Below are positions 32,773-55,252 of a stretch of 64,000 nucleotides of DNA, one piece after another (positions within the stretch are counted from its first letter, which is position 1; every line of letters starts with the position of its first letter). The stretch is from Prodigiosinella confusarubida. GTDB lineage: Bacteria; Pseudomonadota; Gammaproteobacteria; Enterobacterales; Enterobacteriaceae. The translations under genes and the position numbers were made by a program. The stretch covers positions 3,224,001 to 3,288,000 of the forward strand of contig NZ_CP025085.1 in the NCBI RefSeq assembly GCF_002847015.1, given 5' to 3'. Below the pieces are notes generated by a model. That model did not search any database and was not told the DNA's origin. It saw only the letters and a list, made by a program, of their open reading frames with translations.

Positions 32773-33501
32773 TCAGAACTGCAAATGTTCTGCGCGTACG
32801 ATCATTGCCAAACCTGAAGTGAGTTGAACCCTGACTTCACCTTTAGCAATCTCAAGCACAGTGGCATCCATGGCATTTTTGCCAGCTCTGACTTTAATTT
32901 CCTGACCGATTTGCAGTTTAGATATATCTGTAACCACATCTCGCTGAGTCTGTTTTTCCTCACGGACAGGTTTGGACTGGCGTGATTGAGATTTGTCTGT
33001 CGACGAAGACGGAGGGGGAATCTGCGTTGGGCGAGAAACAGTCTGACGCGGTCGGCGAGCAGCAGCACCGGAGTCATCCCGATCACGACGAGGAGCAGAA
33101 CGCTTGCGGACGGGTTCAGTCACTTCTCCCGCTTCACGTTTCTTCGCTTGTTGTTCCGCTCGCTGGGCCTGAACACGGGCTTTTGCCTCTTCCAGTTGTT
33201 TACGTGCATGTTCCACATGTTGCTGTTCAAGCTCTCCGCAAGGATTACCATCTAAATCAACACGCTGAGCACCTAGTTTGATGCCATACAAATAACGCCA
33301 ACTGGAAGTGTAAAGCCTCAGAGCAGACCGCAATTGTGTTTTGCTGACATGATCTGATTCAGGCACATGTGCGACCAGATCCTGAAAGATTCCGATCTTC
33401 AACGGACGGGCTTCACCTTCACTGGTGAAGCAAAGCGGGAACCGCTCCGCCAAATAAGCAATAACTTCTTTACTACTGTTCAACTTAGGTTGATTTTCCA
33501 T
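32773..33501 (-). CDS. proQ: RNA chaperone ProQ
   Basis: FinO-domain RNA-binding protein that stabilises many small RNAs and mRNA 3' ends. The protein has 242 residues. The N-terminal ProQ/FinO domain (about 1-120, [11 protein letters not shown] and [13 protein letters not shown]) is joined by a charged Gln/Arg/Pro-rich linker (about 125-185) to a C-terminal Tudor-like domain ([20 protein letters not shown]). It overlaps no neighbour and precedes prc. Confidence 0.97.
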
Positions 33502-35360: not shown

Positions 35361-35659
35361 AACGGGATGGTTACTACTCTATTTTTATTATAATTTTTTA
35401 TATTCATTAGAATTCATACGATTGCCGCCGTTCTGTATTTCAAAATCTATCGGGATTAGACAACCATCATGTTGGTAATGATATTCACTTTATTTTCATA
35501 TCGATACTGAACGCAATAATCGAAAGTAGAATGTTAAATATCATTAGCTAAAGCGCACTCCCATTAAAGTAGTGACAAGAAACAGGTTCACCACTCTATT
35601 TATATACAGTATTACACAATTTTAATATTGGGCAACAAAGTGCAGTTTGCAATAAACGA

Positions 35660-36529
35660 TCAGATATTCATGGTAAGCGTCAATATTACAAAACCCAGTG
35701 GAGTCACCTCATCCACACCACATTGGAAGTGAGAAGAACTCCCCACCACATTAATCTTGCGACCCGGTAACAGCGCAACGTCATAAATATCGCTTTTACC
35801 ATCAATATCCAGCAACCAACGCCCATTACTGACGCTCGTCACCCCAGTATCCACCAACCATGATGCGGAACTACTTTCGATCCGCAAAGGATTAAGCAAT
35901 CCTTTGGGTAAAAACTGTGGGTCAGCCTTCCAGTGTGCAGCATCGTACAATTTGCCGACCTTGAGCATTTTGCAAGGGATCGGAATAATATCCGTTTCCT
36001 TATCCTCATCGCTGCGACTTTCCGCCTGAACAGCCCGTCCCTTACCAATAGCTAACCATTCCAGCGAAACCCCAGTATCAAGTGCGCAAGCTATCACAAC
36101 ATCACCAGGGAAAAAGTCTCGACGAATCCAGGTACTGATAGTACCAGGCGCGATTCCCAGTAAGTCACCTAACTCTTTTTGCGTACTAAAACCGTAGGCA
36201 TCCAACATTCGACGGAGTACCGCTTTACCACCGGAAGATAAAATCTGTTCATAAAGCACCTTACCTTTCAACGGTGTTCTGCCAAGCACATTATTTGAAT
36301 TTGCAAAATTCCCCGTAACTAACCACCCAGCATCTGCGCCAGTATCAAGTGCGCACTTAAGGATGATATTACCAGGAACATTTTCACGCTGAATCCAGTT
36401 ACTGATTGTGTTTGTAGGAATTTCAGTAACTTCGCTCAATTCCTTTTGAGTTTTTACCCCATAGCTCGACATGATACGTTCAAGTACAGAGGCTGCTACT
36501 GCGGTACTACTATTTATATTCAAAAACAC
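35660..36529 (-). CDS. Phage CI-type repressor with two tandem HTH domains
   Basis: Repressor of the P2/186 class of 289 residues, against about 190 for 186 CI. The N-terminal DNA-binding domain occurs twice: residues 15-73 (VLERIMSSYGVKTQKELSEV onward) and 104-163 (VLRRMLDAYGFSTQKELGDL onward). Shared positions include YG-x-x-TQKEL, TIS-x-WI-x-R, PG and CALDTG-x4-WL. The C-terminal part (180-289) resembles the 186 CI oligomerisation domain (SNGRWLLDIDG, FQCGVDEVTPLGFVILTL). It is transcribed away from the replication and tail genes and presumably holds the locus silent. No LexA-type self-cleavage dyad was identified, so induction needs another factor. Confidence 0.88.
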   Translation of the reverse strand: MFLNINSSTAVAASVLERIMSSYGVKTQKELSEVTEIPTNTISNWIQRENVPGNIILKCALDTGADAGWLVTGNFANSNNVLGRTPLKGKVLYEQILSSGGKAVLRRMLDAYGFSTQKELGDLLGIAPGTISTWIRRDFFPGDVVIACALDTGVSLEWLAIGKGRAVQAESRSDEDKETDIIPIPCKMLKVGKLYDAAHWKADPQFLPKGLLNPLRIESSSASWLVDTGVTSVSNGRWLLDIDGKSDIYDVALLPGRKINVVGSSSHFQCGVDEVTPLGFVILTLTMNI

Positions 36530-36626
36530 CTCGAGAGTATTTACATATACACGTAATGTGTTCTATAGTGTCTCCACGCCACATGTATCACCATACAACA
36601 CCATAACCTGCAGGAGATATTGCTTT
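36530..36626. promoter_or_regulatory. Divergent control region between repressor and early genes
   Basis: A/T-rich interval between the repressor start and the first rightward frame, the position of the lysis-lysogeny switch in P2-like phages. Short dyads (such as ACAC-GTGT elements around 36555-36585) are visible, but I could not define operator repeats or promoters with confidence. Confidence 0.4.
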
Positions 36627-36779: not shown

Positions 36780-37110
36780 GGTAAATAGAGTGGTCCGGTG
36801 AACAGTTCAGATGTCTTTACATCCCAAAAATGGGGTATCAACAAGACTATATTACTGCTCAACTTCCTAACCAAAACTTTTATATTCATTCGCAAATGCA
36901 AAAGTATGGAAAAGAAACACGTTTTAGTGACAAGAAATCACAACAGATACTTGATAAACAGAAACTATTTGTGTCGAGAGGCCATCATAGAACAACTGGC
37001 TGTCACTATGCAAAACCATAATTCGACAAATCGAATTCCATGATAATAGCATCAATCGTTTCATCAAAATTGTTTCGTTCATCATGCAATTTATGACGGA
37101 GACATCTGTT
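36780..37110. other. Early region without a confident gene
   Basis: Two overlapping plus-strand frames occupy this 330-base stretch (36798-37043 with a GTG start, and 36830-37021 starting MGYQQDYITAQLPNQNFYIH). Neither has family resemblance that I recognise. One may be a small early phage gene. Confidence 0.35.
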
Positions 37111-37620
37111 ATGACATCACATTATGCGGTTACAGCCACACATCTACAGGAAATGCCGGCAAAATTGCGAGCACTGATCGGAAAATATTTTGCAGAACCA
37201 CGCTGGCGGCACACTTGCTATTTTTACAACCGGATGTCAGAGCGCTATCGGCGAACAATCTGCTTCCATGCTGGATTGAGCAATAGCAATACGGTGTATC
37301 AACTGGAAGAGATGGATGAAACCACCCGCGAACGGGTAATTAGCGCACTCGATGAACTACGCCAGGCCTTCAATCATTCACCGCGGCTGTCAACACCGGT
37401 TCTTGGTTTTATTCATCGGCTTTCTATCAGTGAACGCCGAACACTGTTTTTCCATGCCGGATTATCAGCCACTGAATTTAACCAACCGATCCAAAGAATA
37501 GAGGACCAAAGTTGTACCTGGAGTACGTCATTGCTGGTGGCACTGGATGAGCTGAAAACACTGTTTGATGACACCCCGGCCATTCTCACCAGTGTAAAAC
37601 CTGAAAATTATACCCGGTAA
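37111..37620 (+). CDS. Phage replication protein B-like, with an internal repeat
   Basis: The start at 37111 gives MTSHYAVTATHLQEMPAKLR and 169 residues, close to the 166 of P2 gpB. P2 gpB loads DnaB helicase and is encoded upstream of gene A, the same position as here. The protein contains a repeated unit: RMSERYRRTICFHAGLSNSN with ALDELRQAF (about 45-95), and RLSISERRTLFFHAGLSATE with ALDELKTLF (about 102-155). A GGAGA site precedes the chosen start. The gpB assignment rests on size, position and remembered family pattern. Confidence 0.55.
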   Translation: MTSHYAVTATHLQEMPAKLRALIGKYFAEPRWRHTCYFYNRMSERYRRTICFHAGLSNSNTVYQLEEMDETTRERVISALDELRQAFNHSPRLSTPVLGFIHRLSISERRTLFFHAGLSATEFNQPIQRIEDQSCTWSTSLLVALDELKTLFDDTPAILTSVKPENYTR

Positions 37621-37699: not shown

Positions 37700-37927
37700 T
37701 TGAAAAATCAATCATTATCACACCATTACCAGCCACAGGCTGCTTTCGACCGAGCGCTCATAACACGACGCGAAGAGCTGCTGTCAGAAGCGGCCCGTTT
37801 TTACGCAGGTTATCTAAAACAACTGGCCGCTCACGCCCAACATGAACACCTTTCCGCACCTGACATCGTCGAACTACTTTGTCTGGAAGCAGAAAAAATT
37901 CAGCATCAGGTAGGGGAACGGTGCTAA
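37700..37927 (+). CDS. Small P2-like phage protein (DUF2732-like)
   Basis: A 75-residue frame with a TTG start (37700) after AAAAGGATAAA. The C-terminal helix LSAPDIVELLCLEAEKIQHQ resembles the small uncharacterised proteins encoded before gene A in P2-like phages. Its stop overlaps the next start in a TAATG. The function is unknown. Confidence 0.65.
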   Translation: MKNQSLSHHYQPQAAFDRALITRREELLSEAARFYAGYLKQLAAHAQHEHLSAPDIVELLCLEAEKIQHQVGERC

Positions 37928-38151
37928 TGGCAGACAGTATGGATATCTCCCAAGAACAACAAGCGTTAATACTATCAGCCCAGATTGCCAGTGCCCGCAA
38001 ATTGCCGACGCAGATATCAGCACATACCTGTGAAGACTGTGATGCAATAATCCCGGAAGCACGCCGGCTGGCCATTCCTGGTGTCACTTGCTGTGTGTCA
38101 TGTCAGGAAATTCGGGAACAGAAAAAACGCCGCGTTCAGGGGTCATCATGA
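37927..38151 (+). CDS. TraR/DksA-type zinc-finger phage protein
   Basis: A 74-residue protein (MADSMDISQEQQALILSAQI onward). It has a four-cysteine zinc finger of the TraR/DksA type, CEDCDAIIPEARRLAIPGVT followed by CCVSCQE, and a basic tail. P2-like phages encode such a protein just before gene A. The family binds RNA polymerase through the secondary channel. The start overlaps the previous stop by one base, so the two genes are coupled. Confidence 0.88.
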   Translation: MADSMDISQEQQALILSAQIASARKLPTQISAHTCEDCDAIIPEARRLAIPGVTCCVSCQEIREQKKRRVQGSS

Positions 38152-38247: not shown

Positions 38248-40512
38248 ATGACACGATCAGTCCGGGGGCGGTTCCCCCCGACACTGCCACCTCCGTTCCC
38301 CGGTAGACACGACACTACGTTTGTTGGGCCTTATCCATGGAATGCACCGCGTCCGGCAATTGGTCAAGAAATATCGTCGCTGTCTTGTGAAGAGATGCAT
38401 CAAGGACAGGCTGTGCTATTACGCCTGAATATATTGCCACGTTTTCTTGCCACTCATTTCCAACGGCGTTTTGAGTTTCTCAAACAAAATCAAGGATTAC
38501 AGACTGCATTTCGTTATCTACGGATGGTTGATGAACGGCTTTGGTCACGTATTGAAGCTATTAACGCGCGACATCAGATGAATATCAGCATATCGCCCCG
38601 TTTTCTCAACAACGAGGATAATTATCAATGCTTACCGGATATGTCTGATAAAACCTTACGCACATTTGCCAGTCATATCGCCAGACAAATGCATGACGCT
38701 TATAACGATCTCAGTGATGAATATCTTGTTATGCACCAGGGTGACAGACAGCAACTATTCACTGATGCGGCACAACAATGGCTATACGGAAAAGTTGCCG
38801 GAATGGCTCGGGCCTTTAACATTGCGCCCCTGCATTGGCATAAATATCAAAAAAAACGCCTCACGCAACGTAACGCCTTCGCAGCACTCATCCGTCTGGT
38901 TACAGAACGTTGGTGGGAGCGCCAGTTAAAAAGCCAACGTGCACGTTGGCGTGAAGCGTTATTAATCGCCATTGGCCAGGTTACCAGAGCGACCTCACCC
39001 TATGCCAGCCAGCAGGCGATACAGGACATCCATGCACGCCGGATATCTAACCTCGATTTTTTGAAAAGTTGTGAATTGGAAAATATCCACACTGGAGAAC
39101 GCATTGAGCTCATTGACAAAGTTATGTCCAGTATTGCCAATCCAGAAATCCGACGAATGGAACTGATGAGCACCATTGCCGGTATTGAGCGCTATGCCTG
39201 CGAGCGGGGTGACATCGGTATGTTTATTACGCTGACGACCCCATCCAAGTATCACGCTACCCGTGTCGTGGGCCAGGAAAAACGAGTTCTGCTTAATCGG
39301 CATTGGAATCATTCATGCTATACCCCAAAAGACGCTCAGCATTACCTGGTCAGAATATGGGGTAACATTCGCACTGCACTGAAAGATCGCAAATTGCCGG
39401 TTTATGGACTGAGAGTCGTAGAGCCTCATCATGATGGCACCCCACACTGGCACATGATGCTGTATTGCACCCGAGAACAACGGCAAGCCATCGTTGATAT
39501 CCTACGCCACTACGCGCTGAAAGAAGATGGAAACGAAGCGGGTGCCCAACAAAACCGTGTCGATTGCAAACATTTGAATAAAGGCGGAGCAGCGGGATAC
39601 CTTGCCAAGTACATCGCCAAAAATATTGATGGCTATGCTCTGGATGACGAGCTGGACAACGAAACCAACAGACCATTAAAAGAAACCGCAGCCGCAGTCA
39701 CTGCCTGGGCTTCAACCTGGCGCATTCCACAATTCCATTTTATCGGATTACCCACTATCGGCGCCTATCGAGAGTGCCGGCGTATCCGCACTATGTCACT
39801 GGAAAAGCACTTTGATAAACAAATCGAAGCCGTAAGGCAAGCAGCCGATATCGGCGACTTCGCCGCTTACATCCAAGCTCAGGGCGGAGCCAACACTCCC
39901 CGGATCCGACAATCTGTGCGCGTCGCCCGAACACTGAGTGATTCTCTTAATGTTTATGATGAAAAAATCGCAAAAGTCACCGGCATTTTTTCTCCCCGCT
40001 ATGGTACGGAGCACATCTTCACAACGCGTCCAAATGAGTGGCGTATCGTTAGCAAATCTACTGAATCAGAGACATCCCATTTAACCCGCGATGTTGCAAC
40101 GCCTTGGAGTTCTGTCAATAACTGTGGGTCGAATGCGAGACGTCCTCTTCTGCGGCAAGCGAATGTACAGTATCAACCTTACAATGATTGGAACTCATCC
40201 ACACAATCAGCTTCTATTGACTGGCAGGATGAGAACGTAATGCGGACGCTGGCCATTTCAGTTCTCCGACAAACCCCTCCGCGTCGTTTCCTGCAACAAC
40301 CAGTGGATCCCACAAAGGATCTCCCACGAACGCCATCATCTCGGTTGACTCAAACGCAACGCCAACAGTTGGTTTATCTGAAAACAGCACTCCGGCAACA
40401 AGGTGTCGCAACATCACGTTGGGAACGGGAGGCACTGGCCCGTGGCGCTACCATAATTGTAGAAGGCCAGAGAATTCATAATCTTCAGAACGGGAATTCG
40501 ATTAAAAAATGA
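38248..40512 (+). CDS. A: P2-type replication initiation protein gpA
   Basis: Rolling-circle initiator that nicks the phage origin. The protein has 754 residues against 761 in P2. The HUH metal motif is at 398-402 (TPHWHMM). The two active tyrosines are Tyr451 and Tyr455 in YLAKYIAKNIDGY, equivalent to Tyr450 and Tyr454 of P2. In P2 the origin lies within gene A; no nick site was located here. The frame is complete although no capsid or packaging gene is present, so the protein should have nothing to package. The start follows only a weak purine stretch. Confidence 0.95.
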   Translation: MTRSVRGRFPPTLPPPFPGRHDTTFVGPYPWNAPRPAIGQEISSLSCEEMHQGQAVLLRLNILPRFLATHFQRRFEFLKQNQGLQTAFRYLRMVDERLWSRIEAINARHQMNISISPRFLNNEDNYQCLPDMSDKTLRTFASHIARQMHDAYNDLSDEYLVMHQGDRQQLFTDAAQQWLYGKVAGMARAFNIAPLHWHKYQKKRLTQRNAFAALIRLVTERWWERQLKSQRARWREALLIAIGQVTRATSPYASQQAIQDIHARRISNLDFLKSCELENIHTGERIELIDKVMSSIANPEIRRMELMSTIAGIERYACERGDIGMFITLTTPSKYHATRVVGQEKRVLLNRHWNHSCYTPKDAQHYLVRIWGNIRTALKDRKLPVYGLRVVEPHHDGTPHWHMMLYCTREQRQAIVDILRHYALKEDGNEAGAQQNRVDCKHLNKGGAAGYLAKYIAKNIDGYALDDELDNETNRPLKETAAAVTAWASTWRIPQFHFIGLPTIGAYRECRRIRTMSLEKHFDKQIEAVRQAADIGDFAAYIQAQGGANTPRIRQSVRVARTLSDSLNVYDEKIAKVTGIFSPRYGTEHIFTTRPNEWRIVSKSTESETSHLTRDVATPWSSVNNCGSNARRPLLRQANVQYQPYNDWNSSTQSASIDWQDENVMRTLAISVLRQTPPRRFLQQPVDPTKDLPRTPSSRLTQTQRQQLVYLKTALRQQGVATSRWEREALARGATIIVEGQRIHNLQNGNSIKK

Positions 40513-40553
40513 TTAAAGACACATTATATAGTCACATCTTATGAACTTATGTA

Positions 40554-40598
40554 TTGACGAACATTTCAATATATAAAATACTGTATATAAATACAGTC
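40554..40598 (+). promoter_or_regulatory. SOS promoter with a near-consensus LexA box
   Basis: TACTGTATATAAATACAGTC (40579-40598) differs from the ideal E. coli LexA box at two positions and has the obligatory CTGT-N8-ACAG. A TTGACG -35 element lies at 40554-40559, with an AATACT -10 element 17 bases later overlapping the box. The next gene starts 20 bases downstream with GTG. LexA should repress it until DNA damage. Confidence 0.9.
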
Positions 40599-40617
40599 TA
40601 CCAATGGAAAAGGTATC

Positions 40618-40839
40618 GTGGAACAAACTGAGAACACAGGGTTATCCCTATCACGGATTAGATTAATTGCTGATATGTCACTGATATCACAATGTAATCC
40701 TGAAGAAATGAAAATCGCCATGTCATTGATTGCGGATCTGTCTCACAACGCCATATCCACCGATGATTATCAAAAAATTATTAAGAGTTATGGCAATTTT
40801 CAACTACTGGATACGTGGTTAGCACAGCATGGACAGTAA
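40618..40839 (+). CDS. LexA-controlled small protein, candidate antirepressor
   Basis: A 73-residue protein with a GTG start (first residues MEQTENTGLSLSRIRLIADM). It is predicted helical and has no motif I recognise. An AAGG site precedes it. It lies immediately downstream of a LexA box and of gene A, the position of tum, the SOS-controlled antirepressor of phage 186, although Tum is longer (about 146 residues). The inferred role is to inactivate the double-HTH repressor after DNA damage and so switch on the tailocin. Confidence 0.65.
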   Translation: MEQTENTGLSLSRIRLIADMSLISQCNPEEMKIAMSLIADLSHNAISTDDYQKIIKSYGNFQLLDTWLAQHGQ

Positions 40840-41577
40840 GACATTATGATCGATAATATTCAGCAGGAGTTCCACTGGCTAGAATTAAAAACGTCATATC
40901 TCCTTTTCCCTTTATGTCCGCCAGATATAAAATTTTCTCCTCATTTCAGCTTTTTTGCTGAAGCCATGACCATGGGGCTGCCTTAACGCGTAGGCCGGTT
41001 TGATTATTACGTATCATCGCCCATGACTTTTTTTAGGTGTCATTTGGTAAACCACCGACCACACGTTTCTGCCTTTGCCGATGACACCTCCGGTGTGTGA
41101 ATATCTCTCTGTAACAGTGAGTATATCCAACACAAAGATTGTATTGATCTTCCCCGTCTCTGAACTATCAACTCGTCGTTGAAGATAGTGTCTTTACACG
41201 CCGAACCCCGCTGATGTCAAAGGTATTTCGGTTTGACTTTCCATTTACATCGTCTTCATCGGTTAACCACTGAGCATCACGACACATAGGTGGTTGTATG
41301 TAATAAGGAACAACCCCCCTTCGTTGCGATATGTCCCCTGGCCCAGGAGGATAGCAGGCCTGACATCCACTGTTTTTATTCATTCTGAGGTTTCATGTCC
41401 ACACGATTACCTAACGCTCAATCAGAGCGTGATCCGTTGATAAAAAGCCTATTTTTCTGGCTTGGCGTTCAACCAAAAATCATGTTCGTCAGACAAAGCA
41501 TTAAAACGCCATGTCGTCATGCCGCAAACATCGAACAACTGTGCAATACCCGTTCTTCTCTGAGTGGAGATTGTTAA
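40840..41577. other. Deletion scar where P2 head and packaging genes would be
   Basis: In a P2 prophage this position holds cos and genes Q, P, O, N, M and L. Here 738 bases remain with no terminase, portal, scaffold or capsid frame. Visible structures include AGGTGTCAT/ATGACACCT (41035-41043 and 41081-41089) and a dyad GGTTGT-N12-ACAACC (41292-41297 and 41310-41315). The latter may mark the promoter of the lysis and tail operon. A 60-residue frame at 41395-41577 ends next to gene X but resembles nothing known to me. Confidence 0.6.
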
Positions 41578-41781
41578 ATGAAAATTTATGCCCACCAAGA
41601 CGATACCCTTGATGCCCTATGCTATCGCTACTACGGCCGCACACAAGGCGTTGTGGAAACCGTACTGCAATCGAATCCTGGCCTTGCCGATTTGGGCCCA
41701 ATCCTTCCCCACGGTACGGCAGTTGAGCTTCCTATTATCCAGTCCTCATCGACACGTGAAACTATCAATATCTGGGAATAA
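41578..41781 (+). CDS. X: Tail protein X (LysM-like)
   Basis: The 67-residue protein MKIYAHQDDTLDALCYRYYG continues GRTQGVVETVLQSNPGLADL and ends ETINIWE, the same length and pattern as P2 gpX. The LysM-like fold is typical of small tail proteins that seat the baseplate hub. It is the first recognisable gene of the late region and is closely followed by the holin. Confidence 0.95.
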   Translation: MKIYAHQDDTLDALCYRYYGRTQGVVETVLQSNPGLADLGPILPHGTAVELPIIQSSSTRETINIWE

Positions 41782-41783
41782 CC

Positions 41784-41993
41784 ATGGAAAAAGCCACCTC
41801 TACTATATCTTATGCTGTCGCCGTTTTTCTGGCCTGGTTTGGTGGATTGTCATCACAAGATATTGCTTTTTTCGTCGGTGCCGCTGTCGGCGTAGGAACC
41901 TTTCTGGTGAATTGGTATTACCGGCGAAAAAGTTATCAATTACTGCGGCGCACGAACTTGCGTCCCGAGGTATTCGATGAACTCAACCGCTAA
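41784..41993 (+). CDS. Holin (two-span)
   Basis: A 69-residue membrane protein with two hydrophobic segments (about 8-22 and 28-46) and a basic C-terminal tail (YYRRKSYQLLRR). This is the layout of class II holins. It is encoded between X and the endolysin, where P2 has holin Y, but the sequence is not like P2 Y, so the holin has probably been exchanged. Its last 17 bases overlap the endolysin gene. Confidence 0.8.
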   Translation: MEKATSTISYAVAVFLAWFGGLSSQDIAFFVGAAVGVGTFLVNWYYRRKSYQLLRRTNLRPEVFDELNR

Positions 41994-42486
41994 GCGCTGT
42001 ATTGCCGCTACGGTATTGATGCTAGCGGCCCTGCTACCCGACTATTCCCGGCTACATACCTCCAGAAATGGATTGGCACTCATTGCCAATCTGGAAGGTT
42101 GCCAACTGTCACCTTATAAATGCAGTGCACATGTATGGACTAACGGTATTGGCCACACGGCCGGTGTATCCCCCCATCACACGATTACGGAACAGGAAGC
42201 GGCGGCCAATCTCGTGTCAGATGTGATTAATGTAGAACATGCGTTGTCCCGCTGCATGCCGGTAAAGATGCCGCAGCCGATCTATGACGCAGTTGTAAGC
42301 TTTACCTTTAATGTCGGCTCCCGCGCTGCATGTCAATCCACGTTAGCCTTTTTCATTAACAAACAACGCTGGCTCGACGCCTGTAATCAATTACCACGCT
42401 GGATTTACATCAACGGAGTAATTTCTCCCGGCCTGGAACAACGTCGCAAACGGGAACGGACGCTCTGCCTAACGGGGGTGATGTGA
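41977..42486 (+). CDS. Endolysin, lysozyme family GH24 with SAR-type N terminus
   Basis: Muramidase that degrades peptidoglycan at lysis. The protein has 169 residues. The N-terminal hydrophobic stretch (about 7-22) has the weak hydrophobicity of a signal-anchor-release domain. The catalytic layout is Glu40-8 residues-Cys49-5 residues-Thr55, with cysteine replacing the usual aspartate, an accepted variant in phage lysozymes. Further features are TNGIGHTAGV and YDAVVSFTFNVGSRA. It replaces P2 gene K by position. Release of the particle needs this cassette. Confidence 0.93.
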   Translation: MNSTAKRCIAATVLMLAALLPDYSRLHTSRNGLALIANLEGCQLSPYKCSAHVWTNGIGHTAGVSPHHTITEQEAAANLVSDVINVEHALSRCMPVKMPQPIYDAVVSFTFNVGSRAACQSTLAFFINKQRWLDACNQLPRWIYINGVISPGLEQRRKRERTLCLTGVM

Positions 42487-46477: not shown

Positions 46478-47497
46478 ATGAGTACGAAATATTTTACCCT
46501 GCTGACCAATATCGGTGCAGCGAAACTGGCAAACGCCACCGCGCTGGGTGAGCGTCTTGCTCTCACTCAGATGGCGGTGGGCGACGGTGGCGGCACACTG
46601 CCCGCTCCCGACCCAACGCAAACCCAACTGGTTAATGAACAACACCGGGCCGCGATCAACACGTTGAGCATTGACCCGGAAAATACCAACCAGATCATCG
46701 CTGAGCAAATTATCCCGGAAAACGAAGGCGGTTTTTGGATCCGGGAAATCGGGCTGTATGACGCAGATGGCGACTTGATCGCTGTTGCCAACTGCCCGGA
46801 AACCTATAAGCCACAGTTGCAGGAGGGCTCCGGACGTATTCAAACTATCCGCATGATCCTGATAGTCAACAGCACCGATGCCATTACGTTGAAACTAGAT
46901 CAATCGGTGGCATTAGCAACACGTTCATACGTGAATGACAAATTTTCCGATGCAACGCTAACTGGTACACCGACCGCGCCCACCGCCGTCAGCGGCAACA
47001 GTTCAGACCAGATTGCGACCACTGCGTTTGTCACGGCGGCGACCGACGAGGTGGATGCTGTTCTGGCGAAAAAGCTAGATATTGCCGAACTGGTTGGCAT
47101 CCCGCTACCCTGGCCGCAGGCCACCGCGCCAACTGGCTGGCTAAAATGCAACGGTCAGACATTCAATACAGCGTTATATCCAATGCTGGCCATGACGTAT
47201 CCGTCCGGCACCTTGCCCGACCTGCGCGGCGAGTTTATTCGCGGTTGGGATGATGGGCGCGGGGTAGATTCAGCGCGTGCGCTTCTATCTGCGCAGGCCG
47301 CAACGTGGATTCAGCCGAACATCGAAAACAACACCGCCGCGACAACAATCAAAATCGATAATGTGGATAGCACATTTAATACAGGTGAATATTCAGCGGT
47401 CAGCAATCTGACAGAATACGGGCACGACGGATCGCGGGCGCGTTCGTATATACGCCCCCGCAACGTGGCATTTAACTACATTGTGAGGGCTGCATAA
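46478..47497 (+). CDS. H: Tail fibre protein H, cassette 1
   Basis: A 339-residue fibre. The N-terminal baseplate-attachment domain (about 1-150, MSTKYFTLLTNIGAAKLANA) is nearly shared with cassettes 3 and 4. It is followed by a short shaft with the [14 protein letters not shown] repeat and a collar domain ([37 protein letters not shown]). The tip (about 275-330) is unique: AATWIQPNIENNTAATTIKI. It is much shorter than P2 H (669 residues). AGAGGA precedes the start. The stop overlaps the next ATG (TAATG). Confidence 0.94.
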   Translation: MSTKYFTLLTNIGAAKLANATALGERLALTQMAVGDGGGTLPAPDPTQTQLVNEQHRAAINTLSIDPENTNQIIAEQIIPENEGGFWIREIGLYDADGDLIAVANCPETYKPQLQEGSGRIQTIRMILIVNSTDAITLKLDQSVALATRSYVNDKFSDATLTGTPTAPTAVSGNSSDQIATTAFVTAATDEVDAVLAKKLDIAELVGIPLPWPQATAPTGWLKCNGQTFNTALYPMLAMTYPSGTLPDLRGEFIRGWDDGRGVDSARALLSAQAATWIQPNIENNTAATTIKIDNVDSTFNTGEYSAVSNLTEYGHDGSRARSYIRPRNVAFNYIVRAA

Positions 47498-48111
47498 TGA
47501 GTGATTCAATTCAGGCACAAACACACCTTAATAATACCGGGCTGGCCGTAAACGCGGGCTGGATAACTGTTTACCATGTTGACCCACAGACCCGCGAATA
47601 TTGCGGGGCCAGTGATGAATACCTGATGCAGGGCGTCGGTATTCCCGCCGACAGCTACGCCGATGAACCCACATCACCCGAAGCCGGTCAGGCGCTACGC
47701 CGCACGGCAGACGGTAGCGCATGGGAACAGGTGCCCGATTATCGTGGCCAGACGGTATACGGCACGCAAACTGGCCAGGAGCAAACAGTCACCGCCCTCG
47801 GTAATTTACCAGATGATGTGACACTGATGGCACCAGCAACGTCGTATGATAAATGGGATGGCAGCGCGTGGGTAACCGACACTGACGCCCAACACGCCGC
47901 CGCTGTCACTGTTGCACAGCAGCAACTGGCAACACGCCGCGCAACTGCTAACGCCCGTATCGCGGAGCTCACCTACGCGGTGGATCTCGCCATGGCAACC
48001 GACGAGGAAAAAACCGCATTACTGGCGTGGAAAAAATACGTGGTATTACTGAGTCGCATTGACACGTCTACAGCGCCGGATATTGACTGGCCGACGGTGC
48101 CAACGTTGTGA
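47497..48111 (+). CDS. Tail fibre assembly protein, cassette 1
   Basis: A 204-residue chaperone (MSDSIQAQTHLNNTGLAVNA onward) of the phage tail-fibre-assembly family. It has the conserved ending EEKTALLAWKKYVVLLSRID and DIDWPTVPTL. It should fold the tip of the fibre encoded just before it and is translationally coupled to that gene. It is close to the products of cassettes 2 (broken) and 3. Confidence 0.93.
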   Translation: MSDSIQAQTHLNNTGLAVNAGWITVYHVDPQTREYCGASDEYLMQGVGIPADSYADEPTSPEAGQALRRTADGSAWEQVPDYRGQTVYGTQTGQEQTVTALGNLPDDVTLMAPATSYDKWDGSAWVTDTDAQHAAAVTVAQQQLATRRATANARIAELTYAVDLAMATDEEKTALLAWKKYVVLLSRIDTSTAPDIDWPTVPTL

Positions 48112-48287
48112 GACTGAATACCGCAACAACGTTCCTCCGCAGCTAGACCAACGTTCTTATTACAGAGGGACAACACCGCTCGTTGTTGTCCCCTTTCTCA
48201 TCCAACGCCTGTAACGTGCTTCGGCAAAAAACGCTCCCCATAATACCGTCACCCAATCACAGCGAAACATATCTGCCAAATAACATC
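48085..48287 (+). repeat. Direct repeat of about 200 bp, copy 1
   Basis: It covers the last codons of the assembly gene and the following non-coding DNA, ending in AAATAACATC at 48287. The same sequence with scattered differences occurs at 51016-51219. The two copies bracket the methyltransferase, acyltransferase and insertion-sequence block plus the broken assembly gene. Confidence 0.85.
48167..48198 (+). terminator. Terminator after fibre cassette 1
   Basis: GGGACAAC/GTTGTCCC stem with a 10-nt loop, followed by CCTTTCTC. A cognate hairpin is at 51101-51122 in the second repeat copy. Confidence 0.6.
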
Positions 48288-48680
48288 AGTTTTGTCAGAC
48301 AGAGCCATTGGGAAATGGGAAACGTTACTTTCAAATCCATTCTCTGCCAAACTTAACAGTATCATTCGACAGTTTTCAGAATTAGGTTCAAATGCAAGCA
48401 CTCTGCCATTTTCACCAACGAGTGATGCAGCCGGCATCGTATGGGCACCGATATTCACGCCAATATCAAGTACTGTCATTCCAGGACGAATCTTCTCTCG
48501 CATGAAATTAGTAAGGTGCGGCTTGTGTTGATCTTCAGCAATCATGCCGGAAAAAACAGCAAAGTCGAGGTGACCCAGCCATAACTGAAAGCCATCAAAT
48601 TGCTTGAGTAGTAATTCTCCTTTGTCAAATCGCAGGCTCATTCGTGTCGGGTGAGTCTGCCGATCAAAAGCACCGATCAT
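48288..48680 (-). pseudogene. FkbM-type methyltransferase, C-terminally truncated
   Basis: The minus-strand frame from 48680 encodes an S-adenosylmethionine-binding fold (TVLDIGVNIGAHTMPAASLV and RVLAFEPNSENC), typical of FkbM-family methyltransferases of polysaccharide or small-molecule modification. The frame loses family likeness exactly at the border with the direct repeat (48287) and ends in unrelated sequence at 48249. About half of the catalytic domain is gone, so it is probably non-functional. It lies 8 nt after the acyltransferase gene and formed an operon with it. Confidence 0.8.
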
Positions 48681-48688
48681 AGTTCTTA

Positions 48689-49768
48689 TTATTTAGGGGT
48701 AATTTCAGTAGCGTACTCTCCCCCCTTGGGAAACATCGCGCTACGTGATTTTAAAAAATAACGCTCAACATAAACCCATGAAAACGATGCCAGCATAGTT
48801 GTAATTAGCATGGATGCTATCAAACTCCACCAAAAATTAAAATTAAGCTCATTTACAACTATCTGTTGTATGGGGTATGCGTATATATAAATCCCATAAG
48901 ATATATCAAATCTACCTTTAATGATGCAATCGCTGAATGAAAGACATATTGGTAATATTATCACAGGGACAGACAAGTAAAAAATCACATCATTTTCATT
49001 TTTTTTGCTTAGAATTATTATTGCAAGTGCACCAAGGAACACCATCAACGCCTTGTATTTTCTTGTGTCCCAATACTTTTGTGTACAGGCAAGAAACGCC
49101 CCAACGGCAAACGGAGTCAGGAAAAGGCTACCCCTAACCAAGGATTGATGAAAAGATATGTGGTTTACGACAAACTCTTTTATGATTCCTGGCATTGGAT
49201 TGTCTTGAGTAAAGTAAGCTAAAGAGAAACAAAAAAACAATGCCATTGAGGATTTTATAATCAAATGCCTTTTCGTAAAAATAACAATCATTACCAAAAT
49301 ATAAGCGGTAAACTCATACCCAAGAGACCAAAGACTTCCATTTAATCTATTTTCATGGATATACCCTGATGCAAACCCATTAATATCAATAGGCACCCAG
49401 TTCAGAGTAATATAACCAACAAATGTCGCAAAGGCGGTTTTTGATGTCATATACTCTACTGCATCCCCATTTCCAAATAATGGACAAATTATATATGTCA
49501 TTATTGCCGAGCAAATTATTAATGCCGGAAATATTCTCTTGCACCGATTTTCAATATATACAATGGGGCTTTTTGTTTTTATGTAACTTTTTGTTATTAG
49601 AAATCCTGATATTGAGAAAAATACAATAACAGAAAATGTTCCTAGTTTTGTAATTTCAAAAACTTTAGGCTCAGCAAGTCCATTAAACGCATAATGATGG
49701 CTGAACATTACAGCAAAGGCTGCAATCAGCCGCACGATATCAAAGAGGTTGGAACGGGTTGTTTGCAA
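48689..49768 (-). CDS. Membrane acyltransferase (acyltransferase 3 / OafA family)
   Basis: A 359-residue inner-membrane protein with about ten hydrophobic segments. The N-terminal signature RLIAAFAVMFSHHYAF contains the histidine pair of the family. The central NGSLWSLGYEFTAY motif and the C-terminal SWVYVERYF complete it. Such enzymes O-acetylate lipopolysaccharide or other surface glycans. The gene is markedly A/T-richer than the tail genes and is on the opposite strand, so it is a transferred cargo gene. By context it may modify the receptor the fibres bind. Confidence 0.92.
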   Translation of the reverse strand: MQTTRSNLFDIVRLIAAFAVMFSHHYAFNGLAEPKVFEITKLGTFSVIVFFSISGFLITKSYIKTKSPIVYIENRCKRIFPALIICSAIMTYIICPLFGNGDAVEYMTSKTAFATFVGYITLNWVPIDINGFASGYIHENRLNGSLWSLGYEFTAYILVMIVIFTKRHLIIKSSMALFFCFSLAYFTQDNPMPGIIKEFVVNHISFHQSLVRGSLFLTPFAVGAFLACTQKYWDTRKYKALMVFLGALAIIILSKKNENDVIFYLSVPVIILPICLSFSDCIIKGRFDISYGIYIYAYPIQQIVVNELNFNFWWSLIASMLITTMLASFSWVYVERYFLKSRSAMFPKGGEYATEITPK

Positions 49769-50038
49769 CTTGAAAGGCCTGTTCGTAAAATTATTAGTAA
49801 TTATATCATTATTTTATAACCAGGAACCATTCGATCACAACCCATTGAAGTAATAAAATCCTAACTAATCCATAAAAATTATATGGATAATGGTGTCTGC
49901 ACAACTGGCCATTTGTTTATCGACACAAAAATGTCCATGCGTTCTTCCAACTTTATTTCCAGCCAGATCAGTCCGTTGGCCCTCCCTCCTCAAGACTTCC
50001 TTGATCTGCGACAATGTCAAATAATGCTGTATATATAA
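49769..50038. other. Region between acyltransferase gene and insertion-sequence remnants
   Basis: About 270 bases with the acyltransferase promoter near 49770-49830 (A/T-rich). A minus-strand frame of 80 residues (49865-50107) crosses into the ISL3 remnant and has no family resemblance, so I do not call it a gene. Confidence 0.45.
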
Positions 50039-50203
50039 GGGTCTTCCCCTGTTGTGGTGGCTAAGGGCATTATAATGGCAGTTTTGATTTTCTGAGGAGC
50101 CTGCCATGGACGAAAAGTCCCTCTATGCCCATATCCTTAACCTGTCAGCCCCGTGGCAGGAGAAATCCCTTTTTCTTGATGAAAAATCTGGTTTAAGCTG
50201 TGA
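50039..50203 (+). mobile_element. ISL3-family insertion sequence remnant (left end)
   Basis: It begins with GGGTCTTCCCCTGTTGTGG, similar to terminal repeats of the ISL3 family. At 50106 a frame MDEKSLYAHILNLSAPWQEK matches, from memory, the N terminus of ISL3-type transposases. It breaks off after about 28 codons where other sequence begins. The right end is missing. The exact right border is uncertain. Confidence 0.7.
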
Positions 50204-50206
50204 CCC

Positions 50207-50461
50207 TTAACTTAACAACCGCTTCAAAAATAACCTGATCGCCCCCAGTTTTAGCATACTCAGGTAGTTTCTGGCTGTTTTTTCCGAGCGTGTAGCGATA
50301 CGACGATTTTCTTTGAGTATCGCAAAGCAGCGCTCCACGACATTGCGTTTTTTGTACAGGCGCGTGTCGAGGGGCCGACGTCCGTCCTGACTGGCCTTCT
50401 CGTTCGATTTAAACGGAATAACCGCTTTTATTCCTTTTATTCTCAAATGAATGCAAAGGTT
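50207..50461 (-). pseudogene. IS5-family transposase, C-terminal fragment
   Basis: The last 84 or so residues of an IS5-family transposase on the minus strand: IKAVIPFKSNEKASQDGRRP, then YKKRNVVERCFAILKENRRI, which contains the catalytic glutamate region (the E of the DDE triad, ERCF). The N-terminal part is replaced at about 50461 by the end of a fibre gene. It is a broken element that cannot transpose. Confidence 0.82.
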
Positions 50462-50478
50462 GTGAGGGCTGCATAATG
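50462..50478 (+). pseudogene. Residual 3' end of the cassette 2 fibre gene
   Basis: TTGTGAGGGCTGCATAATGA is identical to the last codons of the cassette 1 fibre gene (ending VRAA and TAATG). All sequence upstream has been replaced by insertion-sequence remnants, so the second fibre gene is lost. Confidence 0.8.
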
Positions 50479-51043
50479 AGCGATTCAATTCAGGCACAAA
50501 CACACCTCAATAATACCGGGCTGGCCGTAAACGCGGGCTGGATAACGGTCTATCATGTCGACCCTCAAACCCGTGAATACCGCGGGTCCAGTGATGAATA
50601 CCTGATGCAGGGCGTCGGTATTCCCGCCAACAGCTACGCCGATGAACCCACGCCACCCGAAGCTGGTCAGGCGCTACGGCAGACGGTAGTGCGTGGGAAC
50701 AGGTGCCCGATTATCGCGGCCAGACGGTATACCGTACCCAGACCGGCCAGGCGCAAACCGTCACCGACCTCGGTGATTTACCGGAGGATGTGACACTGAT
50801 GGTACCCGTTACGCCATTCGATAAGTGGGACGGTGCGGCCTGGGTAACCGACACCGACGCCCAACACGCCGCCGCACCGCCAATGACCGTATCAATGAAC
50901 TCACCTATGCGGTGGATCTGGCTCTGGCAACCGACGAGGAAAAAAACGCATTACTGGCGTGGAAAAAATATGTAGTGCTGCTGAGTCGCATCAATACCGC
51001 TACCGCGCCGGATATTGACTGGCCGACGGTGCCAACGTTGTGA
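50476..51043 (+). pseudogene. Tail fibre assembly gene, cassette 2, with two frameshifts
   Basis: Homologous along its whole length to the cassette 1 assembly gene. Two deletions break it: 7 bases near 50678, and roughly 40 bases near 50875. The start frame (MSDSIQAQTHLNNTGLAVNA), the middle (YRGQTVYRTQTGQAQTVTDL) and the end (LTYAVDLALATDEEKNALLA) therefore lie in three different frames. It has lost its partner fibre gene. Confidence 0.9.
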
Positions 51044-51219
51044 GACTGAATACCGCAACAACGTTCCTCCGCTGCTAAATCAGCGTTCTTATTACAGAGG
51101 GACAACACCGCTCGGTGTTGTCTCCCTTCTTATCCAACGCCGGTAACGTGCTTCGGCAAAAAACGCTCCCCATAATACCGTCACCCAATCACAGCGAAAC
51201 ATATCTGCCAAATAACATC
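51016..51219 (+). repeat. Direct repeat of about 200 bp, copy 2
   Basis: Second copy of the sequence at 48085-48287. It includes the assembly-gene 3' end, a terminator-like hairpin (GACAACACC/GGTGTTGTC at 51101-51109 and 51114-51122), and the shared end AAATAACATC at 51219. Confidence 0.85.
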
Positions 51220-51274
51220 CTTTTTCTTCTGCGATGTGCTTCGAAACTTCGTTGATGTCGCACTGCGGCATCAT
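51092..51274 (-). CDS. Small hypothetical protein opposite the fibre cassettes
   Basis: A 60-residue minus-strand frame (MMPQCDINEVSKHIAEEKGC, then DWVTVLWGAFFAEARYRRWI). The part within the direct repeat is also open and similar in copy 1 (ending RRWMRKGTTTSGVVPL against RRWIRRETTPSGVVPL), where the N terminus has been cut off by the methyltransferase fragment. P2 has minus-strand cargo genes between G and FI, so it may be a real moron. It is not recognised. Confidence 0.4.
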   Translation of the reverse strand: MMPQCDINEVSKHIAEEKGCYLADMFRCDWVTVLWGAFFAEARYRRWIRRETTPSGVVPL

Positions 51275-51301
51275 TCCATTCCAACCGTATGAGTAACCTG
51301 C

Positions 51302-52459
51302 ATGAGTACAAAATACTTTGCTCTATTGACAACTATCGGTGCGGCAAAACTGGCAAACGCCACCGCGCTGGGTAAGCGTCTTGCTATCACCCAGATGGCG
51401 GTGGGTGACGGTGGTGGCACACTACCCACTCCCGATCCAGCACAAACCAAACTGATTAATGAACAGCGAAGGGCCGCTCTCAACACTTTGAATGTTGACT
51501 CGCAAAACCCCAACCAGATTATTGCCGAACAGGTGATACCAGAAAATGAAGGCGGTTGGTGGATACGTGAAATAGGTCTGTATGATACTGACGGTGATCT
51601 GGTCGCTATTGCCAACTGCCCGGAAACCTACAAGCCGCAGTTACAGGAAGGTTCTGGGCGTATCCAGACCGTGCGCATGATTTTGATTGTCAGCAACACG
51701 GAGGCGGTGACGCTGAAAATTGACCCGGCTGTGGTGTTGGCCACACGTCAATATGTTGATAACGCGATTATTGAAGTCAAGGCCTATGCCGACAGCCAAC
51801 TTGCCGCGCATGTTGCCGCTGATAATCCGCATTCTCAATACGCCCCGATTAACAGCCCGGCATTGACCGGCACACCGACCGCGCCGACCCCGGTACAAGC
51901 GACAAACAGCACACGGATTGCCACCACGGCCTTTGTTACCGCTGCAACAACCAGTCTATCGGCTAGCGTCACATCGGAACTGGCGTTAAAACTGGGTATC
52001 AGCGAACTGGTGGGCATCCCGCTCCCCTGGCCGCAGGCCACCGCACCAACCGGCTGGCTAAAATGCAACGGTCAGACATTCGATACAGCGTTATATCCAA
52101 TACTGGCCACGGCGTATCCGTCCGGCACTTTGCCCGACCTGCGTGGTGAATTTATTCGTGGTTGGGATGACGGGCGTGGGGTTGATAGTGGTCGCACACT
52201 ATTATCGCAGCAATCCCACGCGATGCAGCAAATGACAGGCAGTGTACCCGGGGTGCACGCACAAACATTGGGGGCCCAATTCGGGGGGTTAGGAGTATTA
52301 AAAATGTACCATACTGACAGCACAATAGCCCCAGCAGCTGGGGGGGGCGACTATGGTGGGTTTGTTTTGGAATTCGATAACAATGTCACCGGTATAAACG
52401 TATCGACAGAGAATAGGCCACGCAACCTGGCATTTAACTACATTGTAAGGGCCGCATAA
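51302..52459 (+). CDS. Tail fibre protein H, cassette 3
   Basis: A 385-residue fibre with the same attachment domain as cassettes 1 and 4 (MSTKYFALLTTIGAAKLANA). The shaft segment contains [20 protein letters not shown] and [13 protein letters not shown]-type repeats, and the collar is LPDLRGEFIRGWDDGRG. A distinct tip (about 290-375, QMTGSVPGVHAQTLGAQFGG) is rich in Gly, Gln and Ala. The frame is intact. Its TAATG end is coupled to the next gene. Confidence 0.93.
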   Translation: MSTKYFALLTTIGAAKLANATALGKRLAITQMAVGDGGGTLPTPDPAQTKLINEQRRAALNTLNVDSQNPNQIIAEQVIPENEGGWWIREIGLYDTDGDLVAIANCPETYKPQLQEGSGRIQTVRMILIVSNTEAVTLKIDPAVVLATRQYVDNAIIEVKAYADSQLAAHVAADNPHSQYAPINSPALTGTPTAPTPVQATNSTRIATTAFVTAATTSLSASVTSELALKLGISELVGIPLPWPQATAPTGWLKCNGQTFDTALYPILATAYPSGTLPDLRGEFIRGWDDGRGVDSGRTLLSQQSHAMQQMTGSVPGVHAQTLGAQFGGLGVLKMYHTDSTIAPAAGGGDYGGFVLEFDNNVTGINVSTENRPRNLAFNYIVRAA

Positions 52460-53073
52460 TGAGTGATTCAATTCAGGCACAAACACACCTCAATAAAAAC
52501 GGGCTAGCCGAAAATGCCGGCTGGATAACGGTTTACCATGCTGACCCACAGACCCGTGAATACCACGGGGCCAGTGATGAATACCTGATGCAGGGCGTCG
52601 GTATTCCCGCCAACAGCTACGCCGATGAACCCACATCACCCGAAGTCGGTCAGGCGGTACGCCGCAATGATGACGGTAGCGCGTGGGAACAGGTGTCCGA
52701 TTATCGCGGCCAGACGGTATACCATACCCAGACCGGCCAGGCGCAAACCGTTACCGCCCTCGGTAATTTACCGGATGATGTGACACTGATGGCACCAGCA
52801 ACACCGTATGATAAATGGGATGGCAGCGCGTGGGTAACCAATACCGACGCCCAGCACGCCGCCGCTGTCACCATCGCACAACAGGAACTGACCACACGCC
52901 GCGCAACTGCTAACGCCCGTATCACGGAACTCACCTACGCGGTGGAACTCGCCATGGCAACCGACGAGGAAAAAAACGCATTACTGGCGTGGAAAAAATA
53001 CGTGGTATTCCTAAGTCGCGTTGATACCGCTACCGCGCCGAATATCGACTGGCCGACGGTGCCGGAGAACTAA
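52459..53073 (+). CDS. Tail fibre assembly protein, cassette 3
   Basis: 204 residues (MSDSIQAQTHLNKNGLAENA onward), closely similar to the cassette 1 chaperone, with differences spread along the length. It ends DWPTVPEN rather than PTL. It is presumably paired with the cassette 3 fibre. Confidence 0.93.
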   Translation: MSDSIQAQTHLNKNGLAENAGWITVYHADPQTREYHGASDEYLMQGVGIPANSYADEPTSPEVGQAVRRNDDGSAWEQVSDYRGQTVYHTQTGQAQTVTALGNLPDDVTLMAPATPYDKWDGSAWVTNTDAQHAAAVTIAQQELTTRRATANARITELTYAVELAMATDEEKNALLAWKKYVVFLSRVDTATAPNIDWPTVPEN

Positions 53074-53402
53074 CTTCGCCACAATCTTTTCCACTCGCTC
53101 CAACTTTACGTGGTGTGATATATCGCTCAGGCAAACGTGCGTTTATCACACCCGTATAAGCTGGTCTTTTGTTTTAAAAGCACTGACAACATTTCGTGTT
53201 TTTTATCGTCATCATCCACATAACAGTTTATCTGCTGAATATTCTTGTCGTGCCATGCAGCTATAAACGCGCATTACGTGTCCTCACTCCAACCAACAGG
53301 CATCATTATTTTGTTCGCTTAGTGACAACTCCCGATTCTGATTTCCGTCACCGGTGTTGTACACCAACATCATTTTCAACCACAGTTGTATAAGTAGGTT
53401 AT
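53074..53402. other. Leader region of fibre cassette 4
   Basis: 330 non-coding bases. They hold a hairpin GTGTGATA/TATCACAC (about 53115-53152), the leader repeat at 53293-53322 and, near the fibre start, a GTAGGTTAT ribosome-binding region. A promoter may be present, but none is certain. Confidence 0.5.
53293..53322 (+). repeat. Fibre-cassette leader repeat, copy 2
   Basis: CCAACAGGCATCATTATTTT and following bases match the copy at 46364-46394 with few differences. Confidence 0.6.
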
Positions 53403-54671
53403 ATGAGTACAAAATACCTTGCTCTATTGACGAACGTCGGCACGACGAAACTGGCAAATGCCACCGTGCTGGGTAATCGTCTTGCCATCTCGCAGATGGC
53501 GGTGGGTGACGGTGGTGGCACACTACCCACTCCCGATCCAGCACAAACCAAACTGATTAATGAACAACGACGGGCCGCTCTCAACACTTTGAGTGTTGAC
53601 CCTCAAAACGCCAACCAAATCATCGCTGAACAAGTTATTCCTGAAAAAGAAGGCGGTTGGTGGATCCGTGAAATTGGCCTGTACGATACTGACGGCGATC
53701 TGGTCGCTGTGGCTAATTGCGCCGAAACGTACAAACCGCAGTTACAGGAGGGTTCCGGGCGTATTCAGACTGTACGCGTAATTTTGGCTGTCAGCAGTAC
53801 CGAGGCAGTGACGCTGAAGATTGATCCCGCCGTAGTGTTGGCGACACGTCAATATGTTGATAACGCAGTTATTGAAGTCAAGGCCTATGCGGATAATGTG
53901 TTGTCCGAGCATGTTGCCGCCGCTAATCCCCATAAACAATATGCCCCGATTAACAGCCCGGCTTTGACTGGCACACCGACGGCACCGACACCGGTTACTG
54001 GTACCAATAACACGGAACTGGCAACCACGGAGTTTGTTCAATCCGAACTCAATAACGCGTTAGTGGGCATTCCACTCCCCTGGCCTTCCGATACTCCCCC
54101 TTCTGGTTATGCGCTTATGCAGGGGCAATCTTTTGATAAAGCTGCCTATCCATTGCTTGCAACTGCATATCCTTCAGGTGTCATCCCGGATATGCGCGGC
54201 TGGATGATTAAAGGTAAATCAGTAAGCGGTCGTGCATTGCTATCACAAGAGCAGGATGGAATTAAGTCACACATCCATAGTGCCAGTGCATCCAATACGG
54301 ATCTAGGTACGAAAAATGTTTCTTCCTTTGACTACGGCACCAAAACGGCCAGCACTTTTGACTATGGAACCAAATCAACCAATACGACGGGTGAACATAC
54401 TCATACCATTTACAGAGGTAATTCCAACACCAACAGTCAAACAGATAAAACCGGTTTTGATAACCCGTCTTTTAACGGTACATCAGGTGCAGCGGGTAAT
54501 CATGCCCACACGGTAACTATTGGCTCTCACAATCATACCGTAGGAATTGGTCCCCATTCTCATACAGTCACTATTGGTGCACACAGTCACACAATCACTG
54601 TTGCTGCATCGGGTAATTCAGAAAACACCGTTAAAAACGTCGCATTTAATTATATAGTAAGGCTTGCATAA
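53403..54671 (+). CDS. Tail fibre protein H, cassette 4
   Basis: A 422-residue fibre, the longest of the set. The attachment domain ([20 protein letters not shown]) is shared with cassettes 1 and 3. The collar differs ([40 protein letters not shown]). The tip has a repeated FDYGTK element at about 305-325. It also has a run of His-containing repeats ([31 protein letters not shown]), as in long tail fibres whose HxH pairs bind iron in the needle. The ending is VRLA. It probably recognises a different receptor from cassettes 1 and 3. Confidence 0.94.
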
Positions 54672-55252
54672 TGACTTTTAAAATGAGTGACGCAGAGCAA
54701 ACCGTTACCGTTTACAGCCTGCGGTCAGATACCAATGAATTTATTGGTAAAGGTGGCATATTTATTCCCGCATTTACCGGGCTTCCTGCAAATTGCACGA
54801 CGGTAAAACCACCGGAAACAAAAGACGGTTTCATCACCATTTTTGACACAGAAAATCAAAAGTGGCTTGTCAGTGAAGATCACCGCGGCGAGGTTGTGTT
54901 TGGTACTGAGGCTGGTAATGAAATTGTAATAACAGAGCCGGGACCCTATCCGGCAGGAACGACGCTCATCGCTCCTGCAAATTCCTGGCAAAAATGGGAT
55001 GGTACTACCTGGGTGGATAATGTCGAAGCTGAACGTGATGCATTAACTGGAGAAGCCCATGCAAAAAAAAACACACTGCTTAAGCAAGCCAATGATGCAA
55101 TTGCAACTTTGCAGGATGCTGTTAGTTTCGACATAGCAAGAGAAGAAGAAAAAACACTGCTTGTTGCATGGAAAAAATATCGGGTGTTACTCAGTCGCGT
55201 TCAGCCAGAAGATGCGCCGAGTATCGACTGGCCAGTGATACCGACGTTGTAA
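54671..55252 (+). CDS. G: Tail fibre assembly protein G-like, cassette 4
   Basis: 193 residues ([20 protein letters not shown] onward, TNEFIGKGGIFIPAFTGLPA). It is closer to P2 gpG than to the assembly proteins of cassettes 1 and 3, with DHRGEVVFGTEAG and the ending EEEKTLLVAWKKYRVLLSRV. Cassette 4 may therefore be the ancestral P2-type pair, with the others added later. Confidence 0.93.
   Translation: MTFKMSDAEQTVTVYSLRSDTNEFIGKGGIFIPAFTGLPANCTTVKPPETKDGFITIFDTENQKWLVSEDHRGEVVFGTEAGNEIVITEPGPYPAGTTLIAPANSWQKWDGTTWVDNVEAERDALTGEAHAKKNTLLKQANDAIATLQDAVSFDIAREEEKTLLVAWKKYRVLLSRVQPEDAPSIDWPVIPTL

Follow-up and report, generated by a model that had tools for sequence, protein, structure and literature searches.

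A LexA-boxed tumA gene without a detected DinI partner as the probable SOS trigger of a P2/186-type element without detected head genes in Prodigiosinella confusarubida

The window, i.e., the whole stretch of 64,000 nucleotides that was analysed, carries a P2/186-type element in which a repressor gene, an early gene block, gene A, a small gene here called tumA, and the first tail and lysis genes lie in this order (Table 1). No head genes were detected before X, and positions 33001–64000 gave no match to six head and packaging proteins (Q, P, O, N, M, L) of one Yersinia phage or to three integrase queries, searches that a very divergent gene could escape; R of the Yersinia phage was also matched there (45%). 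The element has tail and lysis genes without a detected head, terminase, portal or integrase gene, which is the gene content of a P2-type tailocin. Gene A is apparently an intact replication nickase in an element without detected head or integrase genes. The single Ogr_Delta gene (ogr) of the whole genome is located some 180 bp beyond the end of the window. Positions 47497–55252 hold repeated tail-fibre-like and fibre-assembly-like copies with acyltransferase-, methyltransferase- and transposase-like ORFs between them; with gene names assigned by eye, the region resembles a series of alternative fibre cassettes. The host genome also contains gas vesicle genes, with PF00741 found at three places. 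The one enterobacterium in which natural gas vesicle production is known is reported to be Serratia sp. ATCC 39006 (PMC11778176), and three prophage clusters are reported in that strain, with no mention of a tumA-type gene in the sections consulted (PMC4046660, PMC7725324).

Table 1. Features of the element around tumA, in window coordinates.
Feature	Position	Strand	Description
cI	35660–36529	−	186/PSP3-family repressor: PF07022 in two HTH stretches plus CI C-terminal domain PF16452; putative TumA target
cI/early intergenic region	36530–36626	+	TTTACA-18-TATAGT promoter-like pair and imperfect palindrome ACACGTAATGTGT; candidate CI operator
Early gene, phrog_235	37084–37620	+	Partial similarity to annotated Yersinia phage gpB
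Early gene, DUF2732	37700–37927	+	DUF2732 gene also in 186 early operon
Early gene, DksA-like zinc finger	37879–38151	+	Profile matches
Gene A, P2-type replication protein	38248–40512	+	754 aa; PF05840 (1.5e-103); YLAKY tyrosine pair
Putative SOS promoter of tumA	40554–40582	+	TTGACG, 17 nt spacer, AATACT; 9/12; -10 overlaps LexA box
LexA box	40579–40598	+	TACTGTATATAAATACAGTC; 18/20 to consensus; 19 bases 5' of the GTG start at 40618
tumA	40618–40839	+	GTG start, 73 codons; homologue of the N-terminal antirepressor half of 186 Tum and of PSP3 TumA
Ogr-type site	41295–41312	+	TGT-N12-ACA; between tumA and X, 283 bp before X
Tail gene X	41578–41781	+	First conserved tail gene; 57% to Yersinia phage gpX over 67 aa
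Holin-like and lysozyme genes	41784–42486	+	58% and 64% to Yersinia phage holin and lysozyme

The LexA box in front of tumA is the best match in the genome to the 20-mer consensus that was scored (TACTGTATATATATACAGTA). It is the sole site with two mismatches in 4,971,756 bp (4.97 Mb), and there is none with fewer. When up to three mismatches were allowed the genome held six sites against none for the reversed control, and the window two against 0.00 in 100 shuffles, while none of 20,000 random sequences drawn from a first-order Markov model of the surrounding 200 bp contained a perfect-core box with at least 18 of 20 matches. The CTGT-N8-ACAG core of the box is perfect and is the only such core in the window (0.67 expected per window); the bare core was rejected as evidence, since it is at chance level, with 77 occurrences in the genome and 78 in the reversed control. 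The box is also better kept than its surroundings. Compared with the three closest relatives its identity is 0.95–1.00, against 0.68–0.79 for the 19 bases downstream and 0.30–0.72 for the 80 bases upstream, the last figure coming from an ungapped comparison, in which a 2-base shift in Dickeya takes away some of the identity. A TTGAC hexamer 5' of the box is shared by those Dickeya, Rahnella, Serratia, Yersinia-phage and G014 relatives that were aligned, and is absent from PSP3 and 186 in the same alignment. The host LexA has a canonical sequence and its own gene is preceded by two boxes. With a consensus box in its promoter and a canonical LexA in its host, tumA has the sequence features of an SOS-regulon gene, and its control by LexA, as predicted from the box and the promoter layout, is well supported. 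The first-pass annotation had described a LexA box that overlaps a good promoter and stands 20 bases before a 73-codon gene directly after gene A, at the position of tum in phage 186. The box, the gene and the position (to the right of gene A on the same strand, as in 186 and PSP3) were borne out, as were the closeness of the box and its overlap with the promoter pair; the gap proved to be one base shorter, and the promoter pattern scan alone was not significant (4 observed vs 3.8 expected). A second LexA-like site, at 35592–35611 directly 3' of cI, has 17 of 20 matches and a broken core (CTCT). Two Dickeya loci hold no site of at least 16/20 besides the tumA box.

The 73-residue protein has no family in Pfam or NCBIfam and no relative in a sequence search of the PDB, and its predicted structure is of low confidence (mean pLDDT 66.9). 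It is however matched by the PHROG profile phrog_1993 (5e-24), which also matches residues 1–61 of phage 186 Tum (1e-22) and PSP3 TumA (2.7e-32), and for which PHROG lists the function as unknown. A comparison by hhalign of a profile of 12 window-type sequences with one of 6 Tum-type sequences agrees with this (probability 94.9, E 4.4e-8, 51 columns). Direct comparison gives less: BLASTP against 186 Tum found no match and against PSP3 TumA 18 of 39 identical residues, and in a phage collection 12 of 50,697 records matched at E ≤0.1, none of them covering more than 80% of the query, with PSP3 TumA matched weakly (E 0.04). Since the direct BLASTP to 186 Tum is empty and the match to PSP3 TumA weak, the homology rests on profiles, by which the link to Tum is remote but firm. 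Against its three closest homologues tumA has a pN of 0.18–0.19 and a pS of 0.65–0.74, indicating purifying selection, and from this difference the ORF looks real; the mean values for pairs within Rahnella (n = 45) are 0.056 and 0.363. No tblastn match to PSP3 TumB or to the C-terminal half of 186 Tum was found in positions 33001–64000. Because no DinI domain or partner was detected the gene is filed as TumA and not as Tum, the absence of the DinI half also accounting for a protein half of Tum's size, and it is best read as a TumA without DinI. N-terminal homology, a LexA box over the promoter, a position to the right of gene A on the same strand and a 186-family CI partner, the sequence-level marks of the Tum/TumA family, are all found here, and at the level of sequence an antirepressor role against the nearby repressor CI is well supported.

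A scan of genome contigs gave 27 related loci in Dickeya, Rahnella, Serratia, Yersinia, Chimaeribacter, Ewingella, Pantoea and other Enterobacterales. A perfect-core LexA box is located 11–23 nt before the first tumA start codon in 25 of these and is found at neither L046 nor L047. When 25 loci were scanned for LexA sites of at least 16/20, exactly one, the tumA box, was present in 24 and none in L046. A CI of the window's family is encoded at 25 of the 27 loci, being missing in L033 (contig edge) and L047. Integrase genes were found at three loci (L041, L042, and L044) and head genes at L041, L042, and L047, of which L047 has gene Q; the available DNA of the other 24 showed no head genes. The two Yersinia loci L041 and L042 look like complete prophages, and given the head genes at these two and at L047, TumA is not confined to tailocins. 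Gene A was undetected in L024, L032, L039, L040, and L033 (contig edge) and is reduced to a 53-aa fragment in L037. Both cI and tumA are kept at the first four of these loci and at L037, and L033 keeps tumA without detected gene A or cI. A profile search of 99 genomes, the window's own included, gave matches in 13; among the 15 places listed, 13 have a perfect-core box, L016 has a core with one mismatch and L012 has no box. At L032 (G032 contig C10) a stretch of about 2.4 kb holds cI, tumA, a holin gene and ogr, and X, lysozyme and R gave no match; this is a control module separate from tail genes. At the Dickeya loci L021 and L022 X and R are present and the available DNA has no match to the Yersinia-phage holin or lysozyme; the lysis genes of these two may be of another kind or sit at another place. 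A second genome of the window's species (G099) has four phrog_1993 genes (L074–L077), and each tumA-like locus fetched from it carries a perfect-core LexA-like box, so that cross-talk between elements is possible.

The CI of the window, encoded about 4 kb from tumA, aligns with PSP3 CI over the full length (49% identity over 287 aligned positions) and with 186 CI over 179 positions (35%), and matches PDB entry 2fjr, which is named repressor protein CI. Among the 25 related loci with a CI, the ORF has at least 289 residues in 10 and 196–238 in 15, the shorter proteins apparently having a single HTH. TumA is not specific to a double-HTH CI, because 15 of 25 loci pair it with a shorter one. The first-pass annotation had seen in the small protein a product half the size of Tum, unlike anything recognised, and perhaps a new antirepressor acting on the double-HTH repressor. 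Its estimate of size was right, the half-size form being Tum without the DinI half, and the antirepressor role agrees with the sequence. The phrog_1993 and hhalign matches, on the other hand, reveal clear homologues, and with this Tum/TumA homology a wholly new antirepressor family was rejected: the kind is already known, in Tum and TumA. The double HTH as a reason for a special antirepressor was likewise dropped, given the full-length alignment to PSP3 CI and the 15 of 25 loci with shorter CI. The cI/early intergenic region is kept in two Dickeya loci, and its candidate roles as promoter and operator were assigned by eye. Upstream of ogr (L073) a long palindrome, GAATTTGCAAACTTTTAAGTTTGCAAATTC, lies over the promoter region together with TTTGCAAA/GCAAACTT elements. 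These elements resemble the region before PSP3 pag and also occur before ogr in some, not all, relatives; the palindrome is a candidate CI operator.

Taken together, it is very probable that tumA serves as the trigger by which the SOS response switches on this headless P2/186-type element, an R-type tailocin, via LexA, TumA, CI, and Ogr, and likely that LexA, TumA, and CI make up the SOS switch of P2-type tailocins. The components are read from the sequence, i.e., the homology of TumA, the family of CI, the LexA box and its conservation, the lack of detected DinI and head genes, the recurring Ogr-type site, and ogr itself, and their interplay is predicted as follows. LexA bound to 40579–40598 would keep tumA silent, and CI would repress the early promoter and ogr. 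Following DNA damage LexA would be cleaved and the 73-aa TumA made, which would bind CI and take it off its operators. The early genes and ogr would then be expressed, and Ogr would activate a late promoter between tumA and X to give tail and lysis proteins and, presumably, release of the tailocin, a killing particle of the phage-tail type.

It is conceivable, although unlikely, that the SOS transcript acts mainly in cis by reading through into the tail and lysis genes, TumA being a minor or vestigial leader protein. The tumA gene and the tail genes are on the same strand, and a crude pattern scan of 40400–41600 found no terminator (0 found vs 0.8 expected). Against such read-through stands the TGT-N12-ACA site, which fits the Ogr consensus, between tumA and X. 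The pattern has 17 matches in the whole 64-kb window, but all 23 related loci that have X, which are not independent of one another, carry a site at 101–154 bp upstream of that gene; the window's own lies farther away. An ogr gene is moreover present in the window's genome and was found in all 7 other tumA genomes that were searched, and purifying selection on the TumA protein also speaks against a mere leader. It is very unlikely that TumA instead modulates RecA or the SOS response, a role ascribed to the DinI half of Tum, with the tailocin induced via RecA-stimulated cleavage of CI. The annotation of 186 tum products as DinI, and of the shorter ones as modulating SOS induction, points that way, but the window protein matches only the part of Tum that precedes DinI, a DinI partner was found at 0 of 27 related loci, and the 20 Pfam families listed for the CI of the window include no peptidase, its C-terminal match being PF16452. 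That box and gene are functionless, decayed leftovers of a degenerate prophage, as the undetected head and integrase genes might suggest, is just as improbable in view of the low pN relative to pS of tumA, a box identity above that of both flanks in the three closest relatives, and the persistence of cI and tumA where gene A has been lost.

The LexA-controlled TumA thus remains the preferred trigger, and it is tempting to speculate further, if only tentatively and with some doubt, that CI, a DinI-free TumA, and Ogr are the control unit that P2-type tailocins of several Enterobacterales genera have retained, even those that lost gene A, and that TumA may also disable the CIs of co-resident prophages so that one SOS signal fires several elements (compare the four boxed tumA-like genes of G099). 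No earlier description of a DinI-free TumA as a tailocin trigger was found in the literature searched, which is not proof of absence. A function as TumA-type antirepressor is proposed for phrog_1993, and the 'DinI' annotation of 186 tum can hide an antirepressor.

One of the closest known counterparts is found in Salmonella phage PSP3, where tumA, annotated as "similar to 5' end 186 tum; UV induction of prophage", encodes a stand-alone N-terminal Tum protein after gene A with a perfect-core LexA box directly upstream, and where CI aligns full length to the double-HTH CI of the window. The two TumA proteins are 33% identical. PSP3 differs in being a complete phage and in having a dinI-like tumB, annotated as similar to dinI and to the 3' end of tum, adjoining tumA, whereas the window has no detected DinI or head gene. 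Of the two genes in PSP3, the upstream one is reported to be that with the antirepressor activity (personal communication within PMC3121763). In phage 186 tum is annotated as LexA-repressed, with a product that inhibits DNA binding of CI and a LexA site overlapping the -10 of p95. Its Tum shares the domain of residues 1–61, the position, and the promoter/LexA layout with TumA of the window, but has 146 aa including a DinI half and 18% aligned identity, and 186 CI has 192 aa and a single HTH. Tum is described as binding its repressor and as DinI-like in its second half (Lemire et al., 2011, PMC3121763), and when a p95-tum module was placed beside a 186 switch reporter, pR was reported to be derepressed after UV via inhibition of CI by Tum (PMC7708051). 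GfoA and GftA of the Gifsy prophages, compared here by their description, resemble TumA in being small LexA-controlled proteins that disable an uncleaved repressor; there, however, the antirepressor gene comes after dinI, and the repressors resemble DicA/RacR (PMC3121763). In phage P2, with repressor C, no LexA box above 13/20 was found in the 8.6 kb read, and a crude motif scan of this stretch gave no match. At xenorhabdicin loci CI, OgrK, and DinI are reported (PMC13280938), and this DinI may be a fused Tum. P2D1 of Dickeya dadantii is, like the window's element, a P2-type headless tail cluster, and is induced by mitomycin C (PMC12297226, PMC10719855). The comparison is drawn via loci of D. 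oryzae and D. undicola, where tumA is 68 and 64% identical to that of the window, and 10% of the P2D1 cluster is reported to find a match in one region of Serratia sp. ATCC 39006 (PMC10719855). The regulators and mechanisms of P2D1 tailocin production are described as still to be elucidated (PMC12297226), and for these P2-type tailocins LexA, TumA, CI, and Ogr are now proposed as regulators with exact sites.
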